Shown one piece after another: positions 3,579 to 12,773 of a stretch of 64,000 bases of DNA. Each line of letters starts with the position of its first letter. Positions within the stretch are counted from its first letter, which is position 1. The DNA is from Erysipelotrichaceae bacterium (lineage in GTDB: Bacteria; Bacillota_I; Bacilli_A; Erysipelotrichales; Erysipelotrichaceae), in the NCBI GenBank assembly GCA_017441765.1, contig JAFRVK010000036.1, positions 1 to 64,000 on the forward strand. Reading direction: 5' to 3'. The notes below the pieces were generated by a model. It made no database searches. It was not told the DNA's origin and was given only the letters and a program-made list of their open reading frames with translations. Position numbers and translations under genes: made by a program.

Positions 3579-4724
3579 TTACTCCTCTATTCCCCTTATT
3601 TCCACTTCCTGCACATAGGGCCGTACAGTCTCCTTCATCTGTTCCAGAACCTTTGAACCGACCTCACTCAGCCCGTTCTGGATACAGGTCCCATGATCCT
3701 CGAAATTCTGCAGATAATAGCGTCTGGCTCCCTGGATCCATTCGCCGATCTTCACAAAGTCTTCGATTTCATGGAACTGTTTCACGACCGTCGTGCGGAA
3801 TTCATACTCCACTCTACCCATCAGCAGCAGATCTTTTGTCTTCTCGATCTCTTTCAGATCGATATTCTCTACTCCGATGGTTCTGTGATACTTTGCGGGA
3901 TACTGTTTGATATCCATGGCAACATAATCGACCAGTCCCTCATCGATCAGTTCCTTCAATGCGTCATAGTTCGAGCCGTTGGTATCAAGCTTCACCAGCA
4001 AGCCCAGACTTCTGACCTTCCTGATAAAGTCCTTGAGCCCCTTGTGCAGAAGCGGTTCGCCCCCGCTGATACAGACGCCATCCAGGATCTTCTTGCGACT
4101 CTCCAGGTAATCCAGGATATCGCCAGTCATGATCTCGCCATCGTTCTCGTTCAAAAAAACCAGACTGCGATTATGGCAGTACGGGCAACGAAAATTACAT
4201 CCTCCGGTAAAGACCGTACAAGCCATTTTACCGGGATAGTCCAGCAAGGTCAGTTTCTGTAAGCCATAGAACGGAACCGTATCATCATCGAATTCTGCCG
4301 TATATTCCTTGGCTTTCTCGATCAGCTGGTTCTGGACCCGATAGTAGATATCGATCTCATTCTGTTCCAGACCCGATGATAAATAAGAGTTCCATTCGGA
4401 ACGCATCCTGTACAGATCAGGCATGATCTCCTGTGCCTTCTCTGTCGTAAATAATAATTTTGAACGTTTATCGATCTCACTATTCTCTATTCGCACATAG
4501 GAGAGTTGCTCCAATCTCTGAATAGATTTCGTAATCGTCCCCTTATCAAAGACACCGTTCAAAGCCAATTCATTCATCGAGATCCCCTCTTTTTCATAGA
4601 TCTGGGTCAGAAGAATCAGCTGTGTATAGCCGATCTCGTAGCGCGAAAGCAGCTTATCGAAGTGTTTCTGATTGCAGCGATACAAAATAGAGGAAGATAA
4701 ACTCAGATAATTTTTCTCACTCAT
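3579..4724 (-). CDS. nrdG: MarR-type regulator fused to NrdG2-type radical-SAM activase
   Basis: A 381-residue two-domain protein. Residues 1 to about 140 form a MarR-like winged helix: helix-turn-helix around MNELALNGVFDKGTITKSI, then the wing region RIENSEIDKRSKLLFTTEKA. Residues 152-381 are a radical-SAM activase starting GLQKLTLLDYPGK, with the cluster motif CNFRCPYCHN (Cys176, 180, 183) and GGEPLL; this is the NrdG2-like form that installs the NrdD glycyl radical. The start is the ATG with AAGG six bases upstream. A TTG ten codons earlier would lie inside the promoter. A palindrome over the -35 suggests that the protein represses its own operon, possibly sensing its cluster, SAM or NrdD status. 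That sensing is inference; the fusion itself is plain from one uninterrupted frame. Confidence 0.92.
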   Translation of the reverse strand: MSEKNYLSLSSSILYRCNQKHFDKLLSRYEIGYTQLILLTQIYEKEGISMNELALNGVFDKGTITKSIQRLEQLSYVRIENSEIDKRSKLLFTTEKAQEIMPDLYRMRSEWNSYLSSGLEQNEIDIYYRVQNQLIEKAKEYTAEFDDDTVPFYGLQKLTLLDYPGKMACTVFTGGCNFRCPYCHNRSLVFLNENDGEIMTGDILDYLESRKKILDGVCISGGEPLLHKGLKDFIRKVRSLGLLVKLDTNGSNYDALKELIDEGLVDYVAMDIKQYPAKYHRTIGVENIDLKEIEKTKDLLLMGRVEYEFRTTVVKQFHEIEDFVKIGEWIQGARRYYLQNFEDHGTCIQNGLSEVGSKVLEQMKETVRPYVQEVEIRGIEE

Positions 4725-4742
4725 AATGTACCTTGTAAGCAT

Positions 4743-4770
4743 ATTATAATCCAATTGGTTGAACTTTCAA
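4743..4770 (-). promoter_or_regulatory. Promoter of the nrdG-nrdD-trxB operon
   Basis: TTGAAA (4770-4765), a 16-base spacer and a perfect TATAAT (4748-4743) stand 18 bases before the chosen ATG of the MarR-NrdG gene. The implied leader is very short. Confidence 0.7.
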
Positions 4771-6854: not shown

Positions 6855-7190
6855 TTATATTTCGATCGTTTCTCTGACGAAGTGCACCTGAGCGTCGGAA
6901 TATGTGACCATGACGCTTTCCTGGTGGAAAAACATGCACAGGTCTTTGGCGATCTCCTGAACGATCTCATCCGGCACATCCAGCATCGTCAGCACCAGCG
7001 TATTCTCTTCGACATAGGTTCCATCGTCATGGAAATAGCCGCCTGTGATCGTATTCATCGAGAATGCCACGTGATAGGACTGACAGACGTTTTTCAGCAA
7101 GGAGATATACTTCTCTGTCTCGAATTTCTGCTGCTTCGATGCGGAATCGTTCAGACCGATATAGATCGTGGCCTGTCTTGCGTTATGCAT
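6855..7190 (-). CDS. Small cytoplasmic protein of unknown function
   Basis: A 111-residue protein with no signal peptide or membrane segment. It begins with a strand-like segment ATIYIGLNDS and has a mixed alpha/beta look: KYISLLKNVCQ helix, GGYFHDDGTYVEENTLVLTML strand-turn-strand, then helix DEIVQEIAKDLC. It resembles small ferredoxin-fold proteins, but I do not recognise the family. The ATG lies one base after the stop of the STAS-kinase gene with only a weak AGG nearby, so translation is probably coupled. As the last gene of the operon it may be an accessory partner of that module. Confidence 0.75.
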   Translation of the reverse strand: MHNARQATIYIGLNDSASKQQKFETEKYISLLKNVCQSYHVAFSMNTITGGYFHDDGTYVEENTLVLTMLDVPDEIVQEIAKDLCMFFHQESVMVTYSDAQVHFVRETIEI

Positions 7191-7191
7191 C

Positions 7192-8373
7192 CTAATACAG
7201 CAGCGTATCGACGCTTTCCAGCAGTTCCGCGATACGTTTCTTGCAGTGATCGATCAGCGCTTTGCCCTGTTCAGTCTCATATCCGTTGCGGCGTATCGTC
7301 CTTCTCAGGATGCGGGAATAGCCGATCAGTTTCGCTTTATCGGCGATCGCCTGGATCTTTTCCTCGTTCTTGTCGTCGAAATAGAGCCTTAAGGTCTTAT
7401 CCCAGATCTCGGTACCCATTTCGAAAGTGATGCCTAAGAAATCCAGCATGTTCTGATGATCCAGTTCGCAATAGCCCTGGTAGGCGTTAAAGATCGATGC
7501 AAACTCAAAGATCGGATAACCGGTACATAAGGTATCCATATCGATCAGCAGTACTTCATCGTTCTGCAGCATGACGTTCTTGACATGATAGTCGCCATGA
7601 AGCATATGCAGATCGTAAGGCACTTCCTCGACAAGTTTGCGCAGCTTGGAGGATTGTTCCTCCGGCAGGTGCAGTTTCAGGAAATCCGCCCAGCCCAGGA
7701 CGACTTCTTTCATATCCGGCATGACGCCTTCGTCGACTTCCGTGCCATGGATCTTCTTCAGAAGATCGACAGACATCCCAATGATTTCATCCAGGCGTGA
7801 CGGATCTTCGATGATCAGCTGGCAGAAAGATTTCGCATTCAGCAGTTCATAGACCGAACCGTAGCTGTCTCCGACTTTGACGACATCGTATGGGATGGCA
7901 GTCGGAATGCCCAGAATCAAGGCAGTCCTTGCGAGTTCACGTTCACGTTTGATATCAGGAAGGGAATCGGAATCATAATAGACCTTGACGATCGTATCCG
8001 GATCGATCCGATAGACCTTGCCATTGGCTCCCTGGCCAATGACTTCGCATCCCTCGATGGAAATCTGGCGGAACGCCTTACTGACGGACATCATCTGGGT
8101 AAAGCCGGTGATATCGAAGATCTCATAGACTTCACTGGAGACGTTGATGATCCTCAGATCGGCACATTCTTTTTTTAAACGGAGGATGATCCTTAATCCT
8201 GCACTGGAAATATACTGCAGATCGGAACAGTCGATCACCAAAGGCAGTCCGTTCTGTTCTGTACGGGCTTCCGTGATCTCCTTTTCAATACTTGCAGCAT
8301 TATTCGAATCGATATGTCCTTTCAGACAGATCACAAATTCATCTTCATGTTTCTTGACATCGATCAGTTCCAT
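7192..8373 (-). CDS. STAS domain fused to a TIGR02172-like small-molecule kinase
   Basis: A 393-residue fusion. The first 100 residues are a STAS (anti-sigma-factor antagonist) domain with the signature DLQYISSAGLR, whose second Ser (residue 57) aligns with the SpoIIAA phosphorylation site. The remainder is a kinase of the aminoglycoside-phosphotransferase fold: Gly-rich loop VIGQGANGKVYRI (about 111-123), a Lys in VKVYY, the Brenner motif HGDYHVKN and a metal-binding DMD. The phosphate acceptor is unknown. Phosphorylation of the STAS part by the adjacent RsbW-like kinase may gate the catalytic part; this is inference. Two ATGs are adjacent; I chose the second, six bases from GGAGG. Confidence 0.88.
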   Translation of the reverse strand: MELIDVKKHEDEFVICLKGHIDSNNAASIEKEITEARTEQNGLPLVIDCSDLQYISSAGLRIILRLKKECADLRIINVSSEVYEIFDITGFTQMMSVSKAFRQISIEGCEVIGQGANGKVYRIDPDTIVKVYYDSDSLPDIKRERELARTALILGIPTAIPYDVVKVGDSYGSVYELLNAKSFCQLIIEDPSRLDEIIGMSVDLLKKIHGTEVDEGVMPDMKEVVLGWADFLKLHLPEEQSSKLRKLVEEVPYDLHMLHGDYHVKNVMLQNDEVLLIDMDTLCTGYPIFEFASIFNAYQGYCELDHQNMLDFLGITFEMGTEIWDKTLRLYFDDKNEEKIQAIADKAKLIGYSRILRRTIRRNGYETEQGKALIDHCKKRIAELLESVDTLLY

Positions 8374-8387
8374 CATTTTCCTCCGTA

Positions 8388-10496
8388 TTAAAGATTCTTC
8401 TTGATCCTAAGAATGTTCTGACCATCCTTATACTCATAGGACACATCATCCATTGTTTTCTTCACCAGATAAACGCCTAATCCACCGATCATTCTGTTTT
8501 CGATATCCGCATTCACATCCGGATCTTCATTCAGCAGAGGATCATAAGGCATGCCATGGTCGATAAAAGTGATGATCACAGCCATCGGATCATTTTCCAC
8601 TTCCACTCTCACCGTAGCCGGGCCTGTTTCCGGATGATAGGCAAATTTGGCGATATTGCTGAATAGTTCATCGATCGCGACATCGATCTGCATCTGGGCT
8701 TTCAAAGGACAGTCCAGCGCTTCCAGTTTCTGATCCACAAAATCCGTTACGATTGGAATATTGTCGATCGTCGCTTCTATCGTTAATTCTTCCATCATAG
8801 ATCCTCCATTATATTGTAACGCCAGCATCGTGATATCGTCGAATTGCGGCGCGTCCTGTACGAATTCATCGATCTTTTCTTTCATATGCATCAGCAGTTC
8901 CCTGACTGAAGCGTTCGGTTTGTCATTCAGAGCCTGCAGCAGGCGCTCTTCACCGAAACGTTCCTTATCCTTGTTGGCAGCATCCGTCACGCCATCGGTA
9001 TAGACAAAGATACGGTTTCCCTTTTCCAGCTTCAGTTCATACGTGGAATAGGTACTGTTATCGATGCCTCCCAAAACGAATCCATGCCTGTCTTTAAACA
9101 TGCCGTATCTGTCGTCTTTCAGCAGTACGCAAGGGTATTCATGTCCCCCGTTGGATGCTTTCAGGACGCCTGTAGAGATCTCCAGGATGCCCAGCCATAC
9201 TGTTACGAACATTTCCATCGGATTGTTTCGGACGATACGTCTGTTGACTTCTTCCAGAATGGCAGCAGGATCGGTAATGCCGATGGTCGCAAGATTGCTG
9301 ATGATGATCTTGGAGGCCATCATAAACAGAGCGGCCGGAATGCCTTTGCCCGAAACATCCGCAATGACCAGAGCTAGATGATCGTCATCGATCAGGAAGA
9401 AATCGTAGAAATCTCCTCCGACTTCCTTGGCTGTATACATCGAAGCATAGATGTCGAATTCCTTCCGTTCCGGAAATGGCGGGAAGACGTTTGGCAGCAT
9501 GCCTTCCTGGATCTGGGATGCGACATCCAGTTCGGTCGCGATCCTTTCACGGTCTGCCGTGATTCTTGTGAGATCCCGGATATTCTCCTGCAGCTGCTTC
9601 TCCATGTCCGTCATGATCAGCGCCAGGCTTTCGATCTCGTCCCCGGTATGGATATCAAGATTGCTGAAATGCAAAGAGCTCATTTCCTCATCCTGATCCT
9701 GCACATAGGCACGGGCAGCCGCGTTGAGTTCCAGGATCGGATTAACCACCGTACGTTTCATCTTCCTGATGATGATATTGTCGATGAAGACCGTCACCAG
9801 CAGCATCAGCAGAAAGAACTGCCAGAGATAGGTCCTGACCCTTTCAGCGACATCGTTCAGCGAATAAGCGGTAACGATCGTTGCGATATCCCGACCGTTT
9901 CTGTTGATCGTGCCCGCTCCCGTACAGTTATACTGTCCGTCATGACGATCGAAGATGACCGGCATCAGAGAGCCCAGTTTTTCAAATGCGCTGAGCGTTT
10001 CCTGGCTGACTGTTTCGATATGACCTAAAGGATGCGGATCACTGTTTCTGCTGACTTCAAACAGATACAGAAAATGACTTTCATCGACCATCTGGCCGAT
10101 GATGATCGATTCCGCTTTGTCTGTCTCCATGAATTCAGTCAGGATATCCTGGATCTTGTTGTAGCGGATGTCTTTCAATCCTTCAAAGGCTTTATAGTAT
10201 GCCACACTTTCAGGATCGCTGCGGATCGATTCATCCAGATCATCATAGATGTTTTCTGCTTCTTTCACGATTCTTCCGATCAGATCGGGATCGATCGCCA
10301 GAACGAGATTATCCGCCAGGATCGTCGCCTTTTCACTATATTGGGACTTGAGGTTGTTGGAATAGAAAGCCAATCCGAAAACAAGTGCAATCAGCGCCAG
10401 AACCGTTGAAAACATCAGTATCGTATGAAACATCTTGGCGCTTAACGAATTATGAAGGCGCTCAAGATAATTCATGTCGCGGACGCTTTTTTTCAT
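8388..10496 (-). CDS. Membrane SpoIIE-type phosphatase with HAMP and fused RsbW-like kinase domain
   Basis: A 702-residue signalling protein. Order: TM1 (22-45), an extracellular sensor region (46-222), TM2 (223-243), a HAMP-like linker and coiled coil (245-330), a PP2C/SpoIIE phosphatase (about 345-565) with GGDFYD, DVSGKG, YTDGVTDA and DDIT metal ligands, then a GHKL ATPase of SpoIIAB/RsbW type (about 572-702) with the N-box DELFSNIAKFAY and the ATP-lid motifs DHGMPYD and GGLGVYLV. One chain thus carries both activities of a partner switch: a kinase for STAS serines and a phosphatase that removes the phosphate under control of an external signal. Three STAS proteins in the same operon are the natural substrates. 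AGGAG is nine bases upstream of the ATG. Confidence 0.93.
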   Translation of the reverse strand: MKKSVRDMNYLERLHNSLSAKMFHTILMFSTVLALIALVFGLAFYSNNLKSQYSEKATILADNLVLAIDPDLIGRIVKEAENIYDDLDESIRSDPESVAYYKAFEGLKDIRYNKIQDILTEFMETDKAESIIIGQMVDESHFLYLFEVSRNSDPHPLGHIETVSQETLSAFEKLGSLMPVIFDRHDGQYNCTGAGTINRNGRDIATIVTAYSLNDVAERVRTYLWQFFLLMLLVTVFIDNIIIRKMKRTVVNPILELNAAARAYVQDQDEEMSSLHFSNLDIHTGDEIESLALIMTDMEKQLQENIRDLTRITADRERIATELDVASQIQEGMLPNVFPPFPERKEFDIYASMYTAKEVGGDFYDFFLIDDDHLALVIADVSGKGIPAALFMMASKIIISNLATIGITDPAAILEEVNRRIVRNNPMEMFVTVWLGILEISTGVLKASNGGHEYPCVLLKDDRYGMFKDRHGFVLGGIDNSTYSTYELKLEKGNRIFVYTDGVTDAANKDKERFGEERLLQALNDKPNASVRELLMHMKEKIDEFVQDAPQFDDITMLALQYNGGSMMEELTIEATIDNIPIVTDFVDQKLEALDCPLKAQMQIDVAIDELFSNIAKFAYHPETGPATVRVEVENDPMAVIITFIDHGMPYDPLLNEDPDVNADIENRMIGGLGVYLVKKTMDDVSYEYKDGQNILRIKKNL

Positions 10497-10504
10497 CTGC
10501 TCTC

Positions 10505-11587
10505 CTAAATCAGTCCGAAATGTTTCAAAGCGTTCATGATGCCATCTTCATCGACTGAAGTCGTGACATAATCCGCCTTCTGTTTCAGTTTATCCTTGCC
10601 ATTGCCCATCGCCACACCGATACCGGCAAAGCGCAACATATCCATATCATTCTCGCCATCGCCGAAGGCCATGGACTGCGAACGGGTCAGATCCTCCTTA
10701 TCCAGGAATTTCTGTATGCCTGCCGCCTTCCCTCCAGTCTTAGCGATGATGTCGATGCCAGTCTCGTTCCAGCTGGTGATCGTGCAATGATCCAGCATCT
10801 CTTCCAGCTTCATTCTGGTATCGCTGTCTACGAATGCCAGGCACTGATAGATGTTTTCTCCCTGATATTCACCGATATCCGGAACCGTACCATGCGTCGA
10901 CAGCTGTGTCTGTATCACGACGTCATCGACGTAGTTGATGTAGCGCTGTTTCTCGCCGATCAGCACGAACGGGATCTTGCCTGCCTTAAAGATGTTGACC
11001 AGGATATCCAGTTCTTCGGCAATGATCGCATTCCCCGCAAACATCTGTTCATTCTCGTCCAGACAGATATTGCCATTGAGCGTCAGATAGCCATCGAAAT
11101 GAATATCATCCAGCGGCAGTTTCTTGATTTCTGCAATATCCCTTCCGGTCGCGATCACGACTCTGATTCCTTTTTCCTGTACCATTGCGATGGCTTCTTT
11201 CGTGCTTTCAGGAACCTTTCCTGTTGCAGGCGAAAGCAAGGTGCCATCGATATCAAAAAAGATCACTCTGGTATCAGGTGCAGCGTTGCTTACTTTCATT
11301 ACCGTAAACAGGCCTGTAAATCCTGACAGATCAAAGACATCATAGACGACGTCATTGACGTTTATAAAAGTGATCTTGCTGTTGGCATAGGCTTTTCTGA
11401 GAAAAAGAATGACTCTCAATCCGGAAGAAGAAATGTATTCGGTCTCGTTGAAATCAAAAACGATGTCATGTTCATCATCAAGATTGGCATTCACAAACTC
11501 TTCAAATTCCTTTGAAGTATTGCTGTCGATCCTTCCGAAGGGCCGGATAATGATCTGCTGATCATTTACTTCTTTTTCAAATTTCAT
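10505..11587 (-). CDS. STAS domain fused to a HAD (Cof-type) phosphatase
   Basis: A 360-residue fusion. Residues 1-98 are a STAS domain with YISSSGLR, where Ser54 aligns with the phosphorylated Ser of SpoIIAA. From about residue 107 it is a Cof-type HAD hydrolase: motif I FFDIDGTLL (Asp112, Asp114), motif II ATGRD, a C2-type cap, and motif IV AFGDGENDMDML. Cof-type enzymes dephosphorylate sugar phosphates, nucleotides or flavins. A STAS domain directly joined to such an enzyme suggests output through enzyme activity rather than a sigma factor. It is five bases downstream of the lone STAS gene and eight bases upstream of the phosphatase-kinase gene. The frame is continuous, so the fusion is not an assembly of two genes. 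Confidence 0.9.
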   Translation of the reverse strand: MKFEKEVNDQQIIIRPFGRIDSNTSKEFEEFVNANLDDEHDIVFDFNETEYISSSGLRVILFLRKAYANSKITFINVNDVVYDVFDLSGFTGLFTVMKVSNAAPDTRVIFFDIDGTLLSPATGKVPESTKEAIAMVQEKGIRVVIATGRDIAEIKKLPLDDIHFDGYLTLNGNICLDENEQMFAGNAIIAEELDILVNIFKAGKIPFVLIGEKQRYINYVDDVVIQTQLSTHGTVPDIGEYQGENIYQCLAFVDSDTRMKLEEMLDHCTITSWNETGIDIIAKTGGKAAGIQKFLDKEDLTRSQSMAFGDGENDMDMLRFAGIGVAMGNGKDKLKQKADYVTTSVDEDGIMNALKHFGLI

Positions 11588-11592
11588 GCCGC

Positions 11593-11889
11593 TTATTCAA
11601 TTGTAAAGATATCGGCAAAACCGGTAACTTCAAAAATCTCCCGGATCACGTCGTTGATGTTGGTGATCTTCATCGTGCCCTGTTCTGCCATTTTCTTATA
11701 GGAAGTCAGCAGAACTCTTAAACCTGCCGATGAGATGTACTCCAGATCGCTGAAATCAAAGACCAGTTCCTCGACGCCTTCCAGCGATTCATCCAGCACC
11801 GCTTCCAGTTCCGGTGCGCTCACCGAATCCACTCTGCCCTTTACAGCTAACGTCAGTTTGTTCTCTTCCAAATTCTTATTTACTTCCAT
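11593..11889 (-). CDS. Stand-alone STAS protein (anti-sigma-factor antagonist type)
   Basis: A 98-residue protein consisting only of a STAS domain. The core motif DLEYISSAGLR places Ser54 at the SpoIIAA/RsbV phosphorylation position. The family binds an RsbW/SpoIIAB-type kinase when unphosphorylated. It is likely the central switch protein of this operon, competing with the two fused STAS domains for the GHKL kinase domain encoded two genes downstream. I see no sigma factor or separate anti-sigma gene nearby, so the final target is open. Confidence 0.92.
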   Translation of the reverse strand: MEVNKNLEENKLTLAVKGRVDSVSAPELEAVLDESLEGVEELVFDFSDLEYISSAGLRVLLTSYKKMAEQGTMKITNINDVIREIFEVTGFADIFTIE

Positions 11890-11948
11890 CTTCTACCTCA
11901 CTTTCTGCAGGCTATAGTATCGCCAGCCTGCCAAGCATGTTTCTGTCT

Positions 11949-12773
11949 TTATTTCTTTCTTTGCGGTTTTTCATCAAATAACGAGTCCATATAGAACAGC
12001 GGTCTGAGTTTATGTGCTTTCAGTTCTTCATAAACGATCTGGGTCGTCTGGATCCTCACCGCGCCTGCCTTGTGTGCCGGACAGTTGATCATGAGCGAAT
12101 ACAGAACGCCATTCTCATCGATCGAGACGATACCATTGTAGTTGATCTTTTTCAGGTTTTTCACTTCCGCTTTGGACCGTTCCGCGATCTTGTTCATGGC
12201 TTCGTCGATCTTCTCTCTCGGTGTTTCGAATTCGAAATAGTAGCTCAGAAAGAACTGGTCCTTGATCTTTTCGATCGATGTAATTACCGAGTTGTTTACC
12301 GTATACGTCGAATTGCTTCCGATCGAACGGAATTTAGTGACACGCGCGCTGAAGTACGAAACATCGCACATCTCTCCGTTCCAGCGTACCATGTCTCCCA
12401 CTTTATAGAAATTGTTGTTGTAGATGCTGATGCCGGCAAGGATGTCTTTCAGAGTATCCTGAAGAGCCAAGCCGACGATGGTAGCCATGATGCCTAAACC
12501 GGCAAGGATGCTGGCGACATTGACGCCATTGAGATGCAGAACCACGACCACGGCGCAGATGATGACGATATACTGCAGGACACCGAATATCATACCGATA
12601 AAGGTGTTCTTGTGCTGTTCATCTTTTCCGGAATAAGCGACTTTCTTGATCAGATACTGTTTGATGAAACGCAGTATCACCAGCGCGAACGCCGTAACCA
12701 AAACGCTCCCGATGAACGCTCCCGACTGCAGATATTTCAATAATCTGCTGTAATCTTTACCTATTGTATCCAT
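11949..12773 (-). CDS. MscS-family mechanosensitive channel
   Basis: A 274-residue small-conductance channel homologue. The N-terminal half has hydrophobic segments around 18-35 and 55-105. The last of these is the pore-lining helix, rich in Gly/Ala (SILAGLGIMATIVGLALQDTLKDILAG), typical of MscS TM3. The cytoplasmic beta domain follows (GDMVRWNGEMCDVSYFSARVTKFRS). The family releases solutes on hypo-osmotic shock. It is the first gene of the operon that continues with the STAS module, 59 bases before the lone STAS gene, which suggests that signalling and osmotic or envelope state are linked. Confidence 0.9.
   Translation of the reverse strand: MDTIGKDYSRLLKYLQSGAFIGSVLVTAFALVILRFIKQYLIKKVAYSGKDEQHKNTFIGMIFGVLQYIVIICAVVVVLHLNGVNVASILAGLGIMATIVGLALQDTLKDILAGISIYNNNFYKVGDMVRWNGEMCDVSYFSARVTKFRSIGSNSTYTVNNSVITSIEKIKDQFFLSYYFEFETPREKIDEAMNKIAERSKAEVKNLKKINYNGIVSIDENGVLYSLMINCPAHKAGAVRIQTTQIVYEELKAHKLRPLFYMDSLFDEKPQRKK

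Follow-up and report, generated by a model that had tools for sequence, protein, structure and literature searches.

Partner switching is chiefly known for releasing sigma factors; non-sigma outputs whose targets are known are few and recent. In the CapK-CapS and VapKSC systems a GHKL kinase phosphorylates a STAS domain that is fused to an effector (CapS, in which STAS is joined to a winged helix-turn-helix (wHTH) domain) or a STAS protein that holds a toxin (VapS-VapC), with no sigma factor (PMC13373217). The SiaABCD (SiaC-SiaD) and HsbA-HsbD partner-switch pathways of Pseudomonas aeruginosa control a diguanylate cyclase via a binding partner (PMC8457831, PMC7647112, PMC5085249). SypE of Vibrio fischeri unites serine kinase and phosphatase activities in one protein, which act on the STAS protein SypA with no known sigma factor; SypA, like RbaV and HmpV, is a non-sigma output whose target is unknown (PMC8256260). 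Here we describe a six-gene operon in a 64,000-nucleotide stretch of an Erysipelotrichaceae bacterium (assembly GCA_017441765.1, contig JAFRVK010000036.1, positions 1 to 64,000; hereafter the window), which is probably a partner-switching module with enzymes as outputs instead of a sigma factor.

The operon domains were assigned by Pfam and NCBIfam profile searches with the family cut-offs applied. Reading along the minus strand from 12773 to 6855, the operon encodes an MscS-type channel, a lone STAS protein, a STAS-HAD fusion, a membrane sensor-PP2C-GHKL protein, a STAS-APH fusion and a small protein. A first-pass annotation, made from the sequence alone, had described six tightly packed genes, and all six were confirmed at the given coordinates and on one strand. 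MscS and the lone STAS gene are 59 bp apart, and from the latter onward the gaps amount to 1-11 bp (5 bp to STAS-HAD, 8 bp from there to PP2C-GHKL, 11 bp to STAS-APH and 1 bp to the small protein). None of the catalytic or phosphorylation motifs of the operon proteins is disrupted.

The lone STAS protein (11593..11889, minus strand; 98 amino acids) is RsbV/SpoIIAA-like, carries the motif EYISSAGLR and scores 60.6 bits against PF01740 and 69 bits, over the cut-off, against TIGR00377. The three STAS domains of the operon reach 49-61 bits (Pfam cut-off 22.6), and no others were found in this genome, whose assembly is 77% complete. In the alignment the second serine of YISS[AS]GLR coincides with Ser56 of B. 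subtilis RsbV and Ser58 of SpoIIAA. The phosphorylatable serine (YISSxGLR) is thus present in all three domains, as the first-pass annotation had claimed. Its proviso that the serine might vary among orthologues did not materialize: the residue is invariant in every fusion class, namely in 73/73 STAS-APH proteins, 28/28 STAS-APH-GHKL triple fusions, 11/11 STAS-HAD proteins, 68/68 lone STAS proteins and 3/3 STAS-AMP-binding proteins, counts that are unbiased for loci L031-L070 and for all STAS-HAD rows, while for L071-L150 the conservation is partly built in because YISSAGLR served as one of two scan patterns.

The link between kinase and enzyme fusion comes from the gene neighbourhood of STAS-APH. 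Genes were called in 120 loci and their domains labelled with the window's proteins and relatives; the counts refer to 99 non-redundant STAS-APH loci, a neighbour being a gene within five same-strand genes or fused. A GHKL domain lies alongside or is fused in 81 of the 99 loci, PP2C in 45, a lone STAS in 56 (mostly upstream), a MESH1-like HD_4 hydrolase in 30 and a PHP phosphoesterase in 17. In 28 loci STAS, APH and GHKL form a single chain of about 500-585 amino acids, and these triple fusions cluster in the APH-domain tree (3 changes needed, compared with 21 in shuffles). Because both domains reside on one chain in these 28 loci, GHKL is likely the kinase of the STAS domain in STAS-APH, such that kinase and STAS-APH are very likely cognate; no other evidence for an action of GHKL on this STAS domain is as strong. 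Two triple fusions from Oscillospiraceae/Clostridiales metagenome-assembled genomes (MAGs) directly adjoin an SDF-type dicarboxylate symporter (L086:8331-9977, plus strand) and a PHP phosphoesterase (L084:11902-12777, plus strand), respectively.

The STAS-APH fusion itself (7192..8376, minus strand; 394 amino acids) consists of an N-terminal STAS domain (QYISSAGLR) and an APH-fold kinase that passes PF01636 with 51.4 bits (cut-off 23.2). Its active site (G-loop, K131, HGDxHxxN, IDMD) is intact and invariant in relatives. The cut-off of the paralog family TIGR02172 was not reached (111.9 compared with 228.2 bits). A confident AlphaFold2 (AF2) model of one STAS-APH-GHKL fusion (predicted local distance difference test, pLDDT, 87.8; predicted template modelling score, pTM, 0.79) gave small-molecule kinases as best PDB matches in Foldseek, namely Cph001, APH(2'') and methylthioribose kinase. 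With antibiotic and methylthioribose kinases as top folds, the identity of a Hanks-type protein kinase was rejected for STAS-APH, though its substrate might be a protein.

Of the 36 same-genus genomes, 29 carry STAS-APH. Beyond the genus it turned up in two further genera of the family and, within the order, in a single genome from a different family; an even draw from the phylum gave 12 carriers among 392 genomes. Named genomes yielded at least 577 relatives in a scan; the 80 best belong to Erysipelotrichaceae, Lachnospiraceae, Oscillospiraceae, Christensenella and one Spirochaetales MAG; they are mostly from gut or rumen and nearly all anaerobic Bacillota. Most carriers are MAGs, with Butyrivibrio sp. 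XPD2002 (L149) as a named strain; the nearest named STAS-APH protein, from Solobacterium sp. RGIG2592, is 69% identical, which probably places the window's genome near Solobacterium. Recurring in about a hundred loci of gut-type anaerobes, the arrangement looks like a widespread regulatory circuit. A chance fusion or an assembly error was rejected, since STAS-APH occurs in about 99 distinct proteins and at least 17 genomes have a collinear STAS-HAD. A plasmid origin was rejected as well, the matches in PLSDB being at the level of STAS only.

The putative switch enzymes are united in the membrane sensor-PP2C(SpoIIE)-GHKL(RsbW-like) protein (8388..10496, minus strand; 702 amino acids; PF07228 161.7 bits, PF13581 (HATPase_c_2) 67 bits). 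Key residues of PP2C (GGD, ADVSGKG, TDG, DDIT, including the metal-binding Asp) are conserved in 52-53 of 53 homologues, and those of the N, G1 and G2 boxes of GHKL (E, N, DxG, GGLG) in about 88-91 of 91. For the N-terminus, AF2 and Foldseek predict a transmembrane (TM) segment, a Cache-like domain, a second TM segment and a long HAMP-like helix; the sensor model (pLDDT 80.6, pTM 0.58) resembles the extracellular Cache domains of WalK and Tlp3. The initial description as a TM-HAMP-PP2C-GHKL protein therefore holds for PP2C, GHKL and, as a prediction, the TM segments, whereas HAMP had no Pfam match in the window's own protein, appeared in two relatives only weakly and under the PF00672 cut-off, and is otherwise a HAMP-like helix of the model.

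The same gene may also provide a free GHKL kinase. At the PP2C/GHKL junction GGAGG is followed by ATGATG, in frame at 8798, such that a candidate 136-amino-acid protein (8388..8798, minus strand) could arise from an internal start. A strong Shine-Dalgarno sequence is found at this junction in 9/33 fused homologues compared with about 2% of other internal ATGs, a somewhat generous contrast in that the best of several candidate start codons was taken. Stand-alone GHKL proteins of relatives often have 135-137 amino acids.

The third STAS domain (EYISSSGLR) forms the N-terminus of the STAS-HAD fusion (10505..11587, minus strand; 360 amino acids), whose phosphatase part passes the Cof-type HAD-IIB family TIGR00099 with 182.6 bits (cut-off 137). 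HAD motifs I-IV (DIDGT/ATGR/K/GDGEND) are intact and invariant in 11 other STAS-HAD proteins, and the nearest solved structure is the sugar-phosphate phosphatase BT4131. Elsewhere in the genus STAS-HAD occupies other loci, often adjoining a LytS/LytR-type pair, and some genomes with STAS-APH have no STAS-HAD.

Taken as a partner switch with enzyme outputs, the operon could work as follows. The membrane protein would sense an extracellular signal via its modelled Cache-like domain. Its PP2C domain would take the phosphate off the conserved serine of the three STAS domains, while its GHKL domain, perhaps also as a separate 136-amino-acid protein, would add phosphate to the same serine, for which CapK-CapS provides a precedent of a GHKL protein phosphorylating effector-fused STAS (PMC13373217). 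The lone STAS protein would act as soluble switch partner in the classical way. For APH and HAD, activity or availability would then be set in one step and without transcription, by the phosphorylation state of the fused STAS domain and by its binding to GHKL when unphosphorylated. The scheme builds on the gene content, the fusions, the conserved catalytic and phospho-site residues, the recurrent linkage and the lack of a matching sigma factor, all of which are established here, while the phosphorylation cycle, the allosteric effect and its sign as well as the substrates are inferred. If it is true, fast post-translational control of metabolism by Rsb/Spo logic would be common in gut and rumen bacteria, and the single-chain STAS-APH-GHKL proteins (28 cases) would allow serine phosphorylation and enzyme activity to be studied together.

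Several observations weigh against this reading. To the partial bias of the serine counts for L071-L150 come the incompleteness of the genome (77%) and the 18 of 99 loci that have no GHKL nearby, many of which lie on contigs that end close to the locus. Only the small clade to which the window belongs has STAS-HAD inside this operon. The genome also holds two further PP2C proteins and a MATE-GHKL fusion, such that the wiring may be that of a network rather than of one operon. The original proposal that the switch controls both HAD and kinase directly is backed in part: the lack of a sigma factor, the retained serines and the fusion of GHKL to STAS-APH in 28 loci argue for it, the restriction of the in-operon STAS-HAD to a small clade against it.

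Among the alternatives, the least unlikely is that the lone STAS protein is the real output, acting on an unknown target, while the fused STAS domains would serve for docking only, recruiting APH and HAD to the complex of kinase and phosphatase but not regulating them. The presence of a lone STAS in 56/99 loci and the precedent of SypA, RbaV and HmpV (PMC8256260) agree with it. Mere docking would, however, not need the phosphorylatable serine and the whole YISSxGLR motif, which are near-invariant in the fused domains, and in many loci STAS-APH has no lone STAS among its neighbours. We consider this explanation unlikely.

An ordinary sigma switch appears distinctly unlikely. In that case the enzymes would be passengers, and GHKL would bind a sigma factor from another locus: SigA, an extracytoplasmic function (ECF) factor, or a factor within the 23% of the genome that the assembly lacks. 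GHKL, STAS and PP2C are admittedly the classical parts of such a switch. SigB/F/G-type sigma factors (TIGR02980) were over the cut-off in 0/36 same-genus genomes, including that of the window (17 of the 36 are at least 90% complete); ECF factors were not specifically searched. The best TIGR02980 match in the window's genome, a 405-amino-acid frame with 125 bits, is far under the cut-off of 234, as expected of a housekeeping factor. As a positive control, other genomes of the order do pass TIGR02980 with STAS beside the sigma gene, e.g. G070, G082 and G065 (SigF). We also ran a local SigF-type hidden Markov model (four seeds, one of them misread at 40 amino acids) over 1.78 Mb of surveyed loci. 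While the canonical spoIIAA-sigF control (L070) gave 401 bits, the other matches were an opposite-strand gene in L133, a 76-bit match on the other strand in L115, and in L126 a short sigma-70-like gene directly upstream of PP2C-GHKL. The last speaks for a sigma switch, but it has no same-strand counterpart in the other STAS-APH loci surveyed. The fusion of GHKL to STAS-APH and to a MATE transporter is a further argument against such a switch. On the genus-wide search and the local model a canonical sigma switch was rejected as the principal interpretation; the first-pass annotation had seen no sigma factor, which the search bears out for the SigB/F/G type in the window's genome and 35 others of the genus.

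The hydrolases beside STAS-APH in relatives bear on what the kinase might do. In the window's genus the genes usually run STAS, (sensor)-PP2C-GHKL, HD_4 and STAS-APH. The HD_4 protein passes its Pfam cut-off with 83.5 bits, matches the structures of MESH1, Lmo0812 and Rel hydrolase, carries the hydrolase residues (H / HD / ED / D..N) in 33/33 cases and thus, by sequence, qualifies as a small alarmone hydrolase of the MESH1 type. Many relatives have this gene before STAS-APH; the window's operon and that of its closest relative, G017, do not, nor was HD_4 found elsewhere in the window's genome, a weak absence given that the Rel of the genus is also missing from the incomplete assembly. HD_4 carriers are scattered over the APH tree, and the window and G017 adjoin such carriers, which makes it probable that the lineage of the window lost HD_4 and gained STAS-HAD in its operon. 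The ancestral core is STAS, PP2C/GHKL, (the MESH1-like HD hydrolase) and STAS-APH. The neighbourhood survey that the first-pass annotation had called for yields a divided picture, in which the linkage of STAS, PP2C-GHKL and STAS-APH recurs while MscS and the in-operon STAS-HAD are limited to close kin. In the surveyed loci HD_4 never occurs together with the fused STAS-APH-GHKL nor with PHP, a pattern that may partly reflect phylogeny. The PHP protein matches an exoribonuclease and the structure 2yb1, which is the bisphosphonucleotide phosphatase Cv1693.

The recurrent MESH1-like hydrolase raises the question whether the switch touches alarmone levels. One speculative and rather improbable extension is that STAS-APH makes or modifies a small nucleotide-like signal, which would be removed by an interchangeable neighbouring hydrolase (MESH1-like HD_4, STAS-HAD, or PHP of the Cv1693/RNase AM type). 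Across anaerobic Bacillota the partner switch would then directly set the level of a second messenger, either unknown so far or unexpected, and transport proteins of the MATE, CstA or MscS type would be further outputs. Least probable is an opposed enzyme pair, in line with the opposite directions suggested by the first-pass annotation, in which STAS-APH phosphorylates and STAS-HAD dephosphorylates one and the same small molecule, with the switch tipping the balance: kinase and phosphatase do share an operon with both active sites intact, and other loci carry a different hydrolase beside STAS-APH (HD_4 in 30, PHP in 17), but in most genomes STAS-HAD is apart from STAS-APH, often beside a LytS/LytR-type pair, or absent.

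Candidate outputs of the switch also lie beyond the operon. Fusions of the same STAS type involve four classes of enzyme, namely APH kinase, HAD phosphatase, AMP-binding (AMP-forming) ligase and GH3. STAS-AMP-binding (acyl-adenylating) enzymes of 627-628 amino acids with the motif YITS[AV]GLR occur in three same-genus genomes (L053:485-2368, L054:7389-9275 and L055:1124-3007, all minus strand). A GH3-family enzyme of 680 amino acids with a C-terminal STAS domain (L115:13493-15535, plus strand) lies near STAS-APH, a lone STAS and a MatE-GHKL gene. The window's own genome encodes on another contig (G000:C31, L155:2405-4177, plus strand) a 590-amino-acid MATE transporter with a C-terminal RsbW-like GHKL domain; such MatE-GHKL fusions are also found in the STAS-APH clusters L094, L103 and L115. 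It furthermore encodes two more SpoIIE phosphatases (L156:4285-7473 and L157:4867-6384, both minus strand), one with a Reg_prop/Y_Y_Y sensor, whose STAS substrates are not obvious unless they are the three of the operon. Because of these extra STAS and GHKL fusions and SpoIIE proteins, a sigma-less network is suggested rather than a single operon. The MATE-GHKL fusion, the HD_4 hydrolase and the STAS-APH-GHKL chain were out of sight for the first-pass annotation. The clusters L094:8934-18708 and L103:8933-18832 run GHKL, HD_4, STAS-APH, STAS, formyltransferase-like, LPG_synthase_C-like, MatE-GHKL, PP2C-GHKL and CstA; the families were tested for L094, and L103 has the same layout with a broken STAS-APH.

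The outer genes of the operon are less widely shared. The MscS-type mechanosensitive channel (11949..12773, minus strand; 274 amino acids; 31.5 bits against Pfam MS_channel_2nd, the MscS beta-domain) lies upstream on the same strand in only 9 surveyed loci, all of close kin, and is a possible first gene of the operon outside its core. The small protein (6855..7190, minus strand; 111 amino acids) has no confident family: Pfam and structure searches gave no solved relative and only sub-threshold matches (DUF3574, S-adenosylmethionine lyase), and among the surveyed loci it is present only in the closest relative. A promoter and terminator scan performed no better than on shuffled sequence. Elsewhere in the window (3579-4754, minus strand) a MarR-type regulator is fused to a radical S-adenosylmethionine domain resembling the anaerobic ribonucleotide reductase activase (NrdG2); MarR-NrdG2-like proteins of 381-391 amino acids are also found near the locus in the relatives L031, L042, L045 and L047.

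Compared with the described systems, the operon shares PP2C, GHKL, the STAS phosphoserine motif and the active sites with the SpoIIE-SpoIIAB-SpoIIAA and RsbU-RsbW-RsbV switches of B. subtilis sigma-F and sigma-B. It differs from them in that there is no matching sigma factor, PP2C and GHKL form one chain and two of the three STAS domains are fused to enzymes. No paper on STAS-APH, STAS-HAD or TIGR02172 was found in the open-access literature. As in CapK-CapS and VapKSC, GHKL is combined with a STAS domain tied to an effector without a sigma factor. There the part of the effector is taken by a DNA-binding domain or by an RNase bound to STAS, no PP2C is described and the domain order is another (PMC13373217), whereas here a metabolic-type enzyme is fused; Pfam detected no helix-turn-helix domain, as in the STAS-wHTH of CapS, in any operon protein. 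The sensor protein matches SiaA with 74 bits, short of the threshold. In SiaD and HsbD, however, the enzyme is a separate protein that makes cyclic di-GMP, for which no GGDEF match was obtained among the operon proteins, while here the kinase and the phosphatase each share a chain with STAS. SypA, finally, is a lone STAS with an unknown target and without a STAS-enzyme fusion, in contrast to the operon. Non-sigma outputs of partner switches are already known; what sets this operon apart is that STAS is fused to metabolic-type enzymes.

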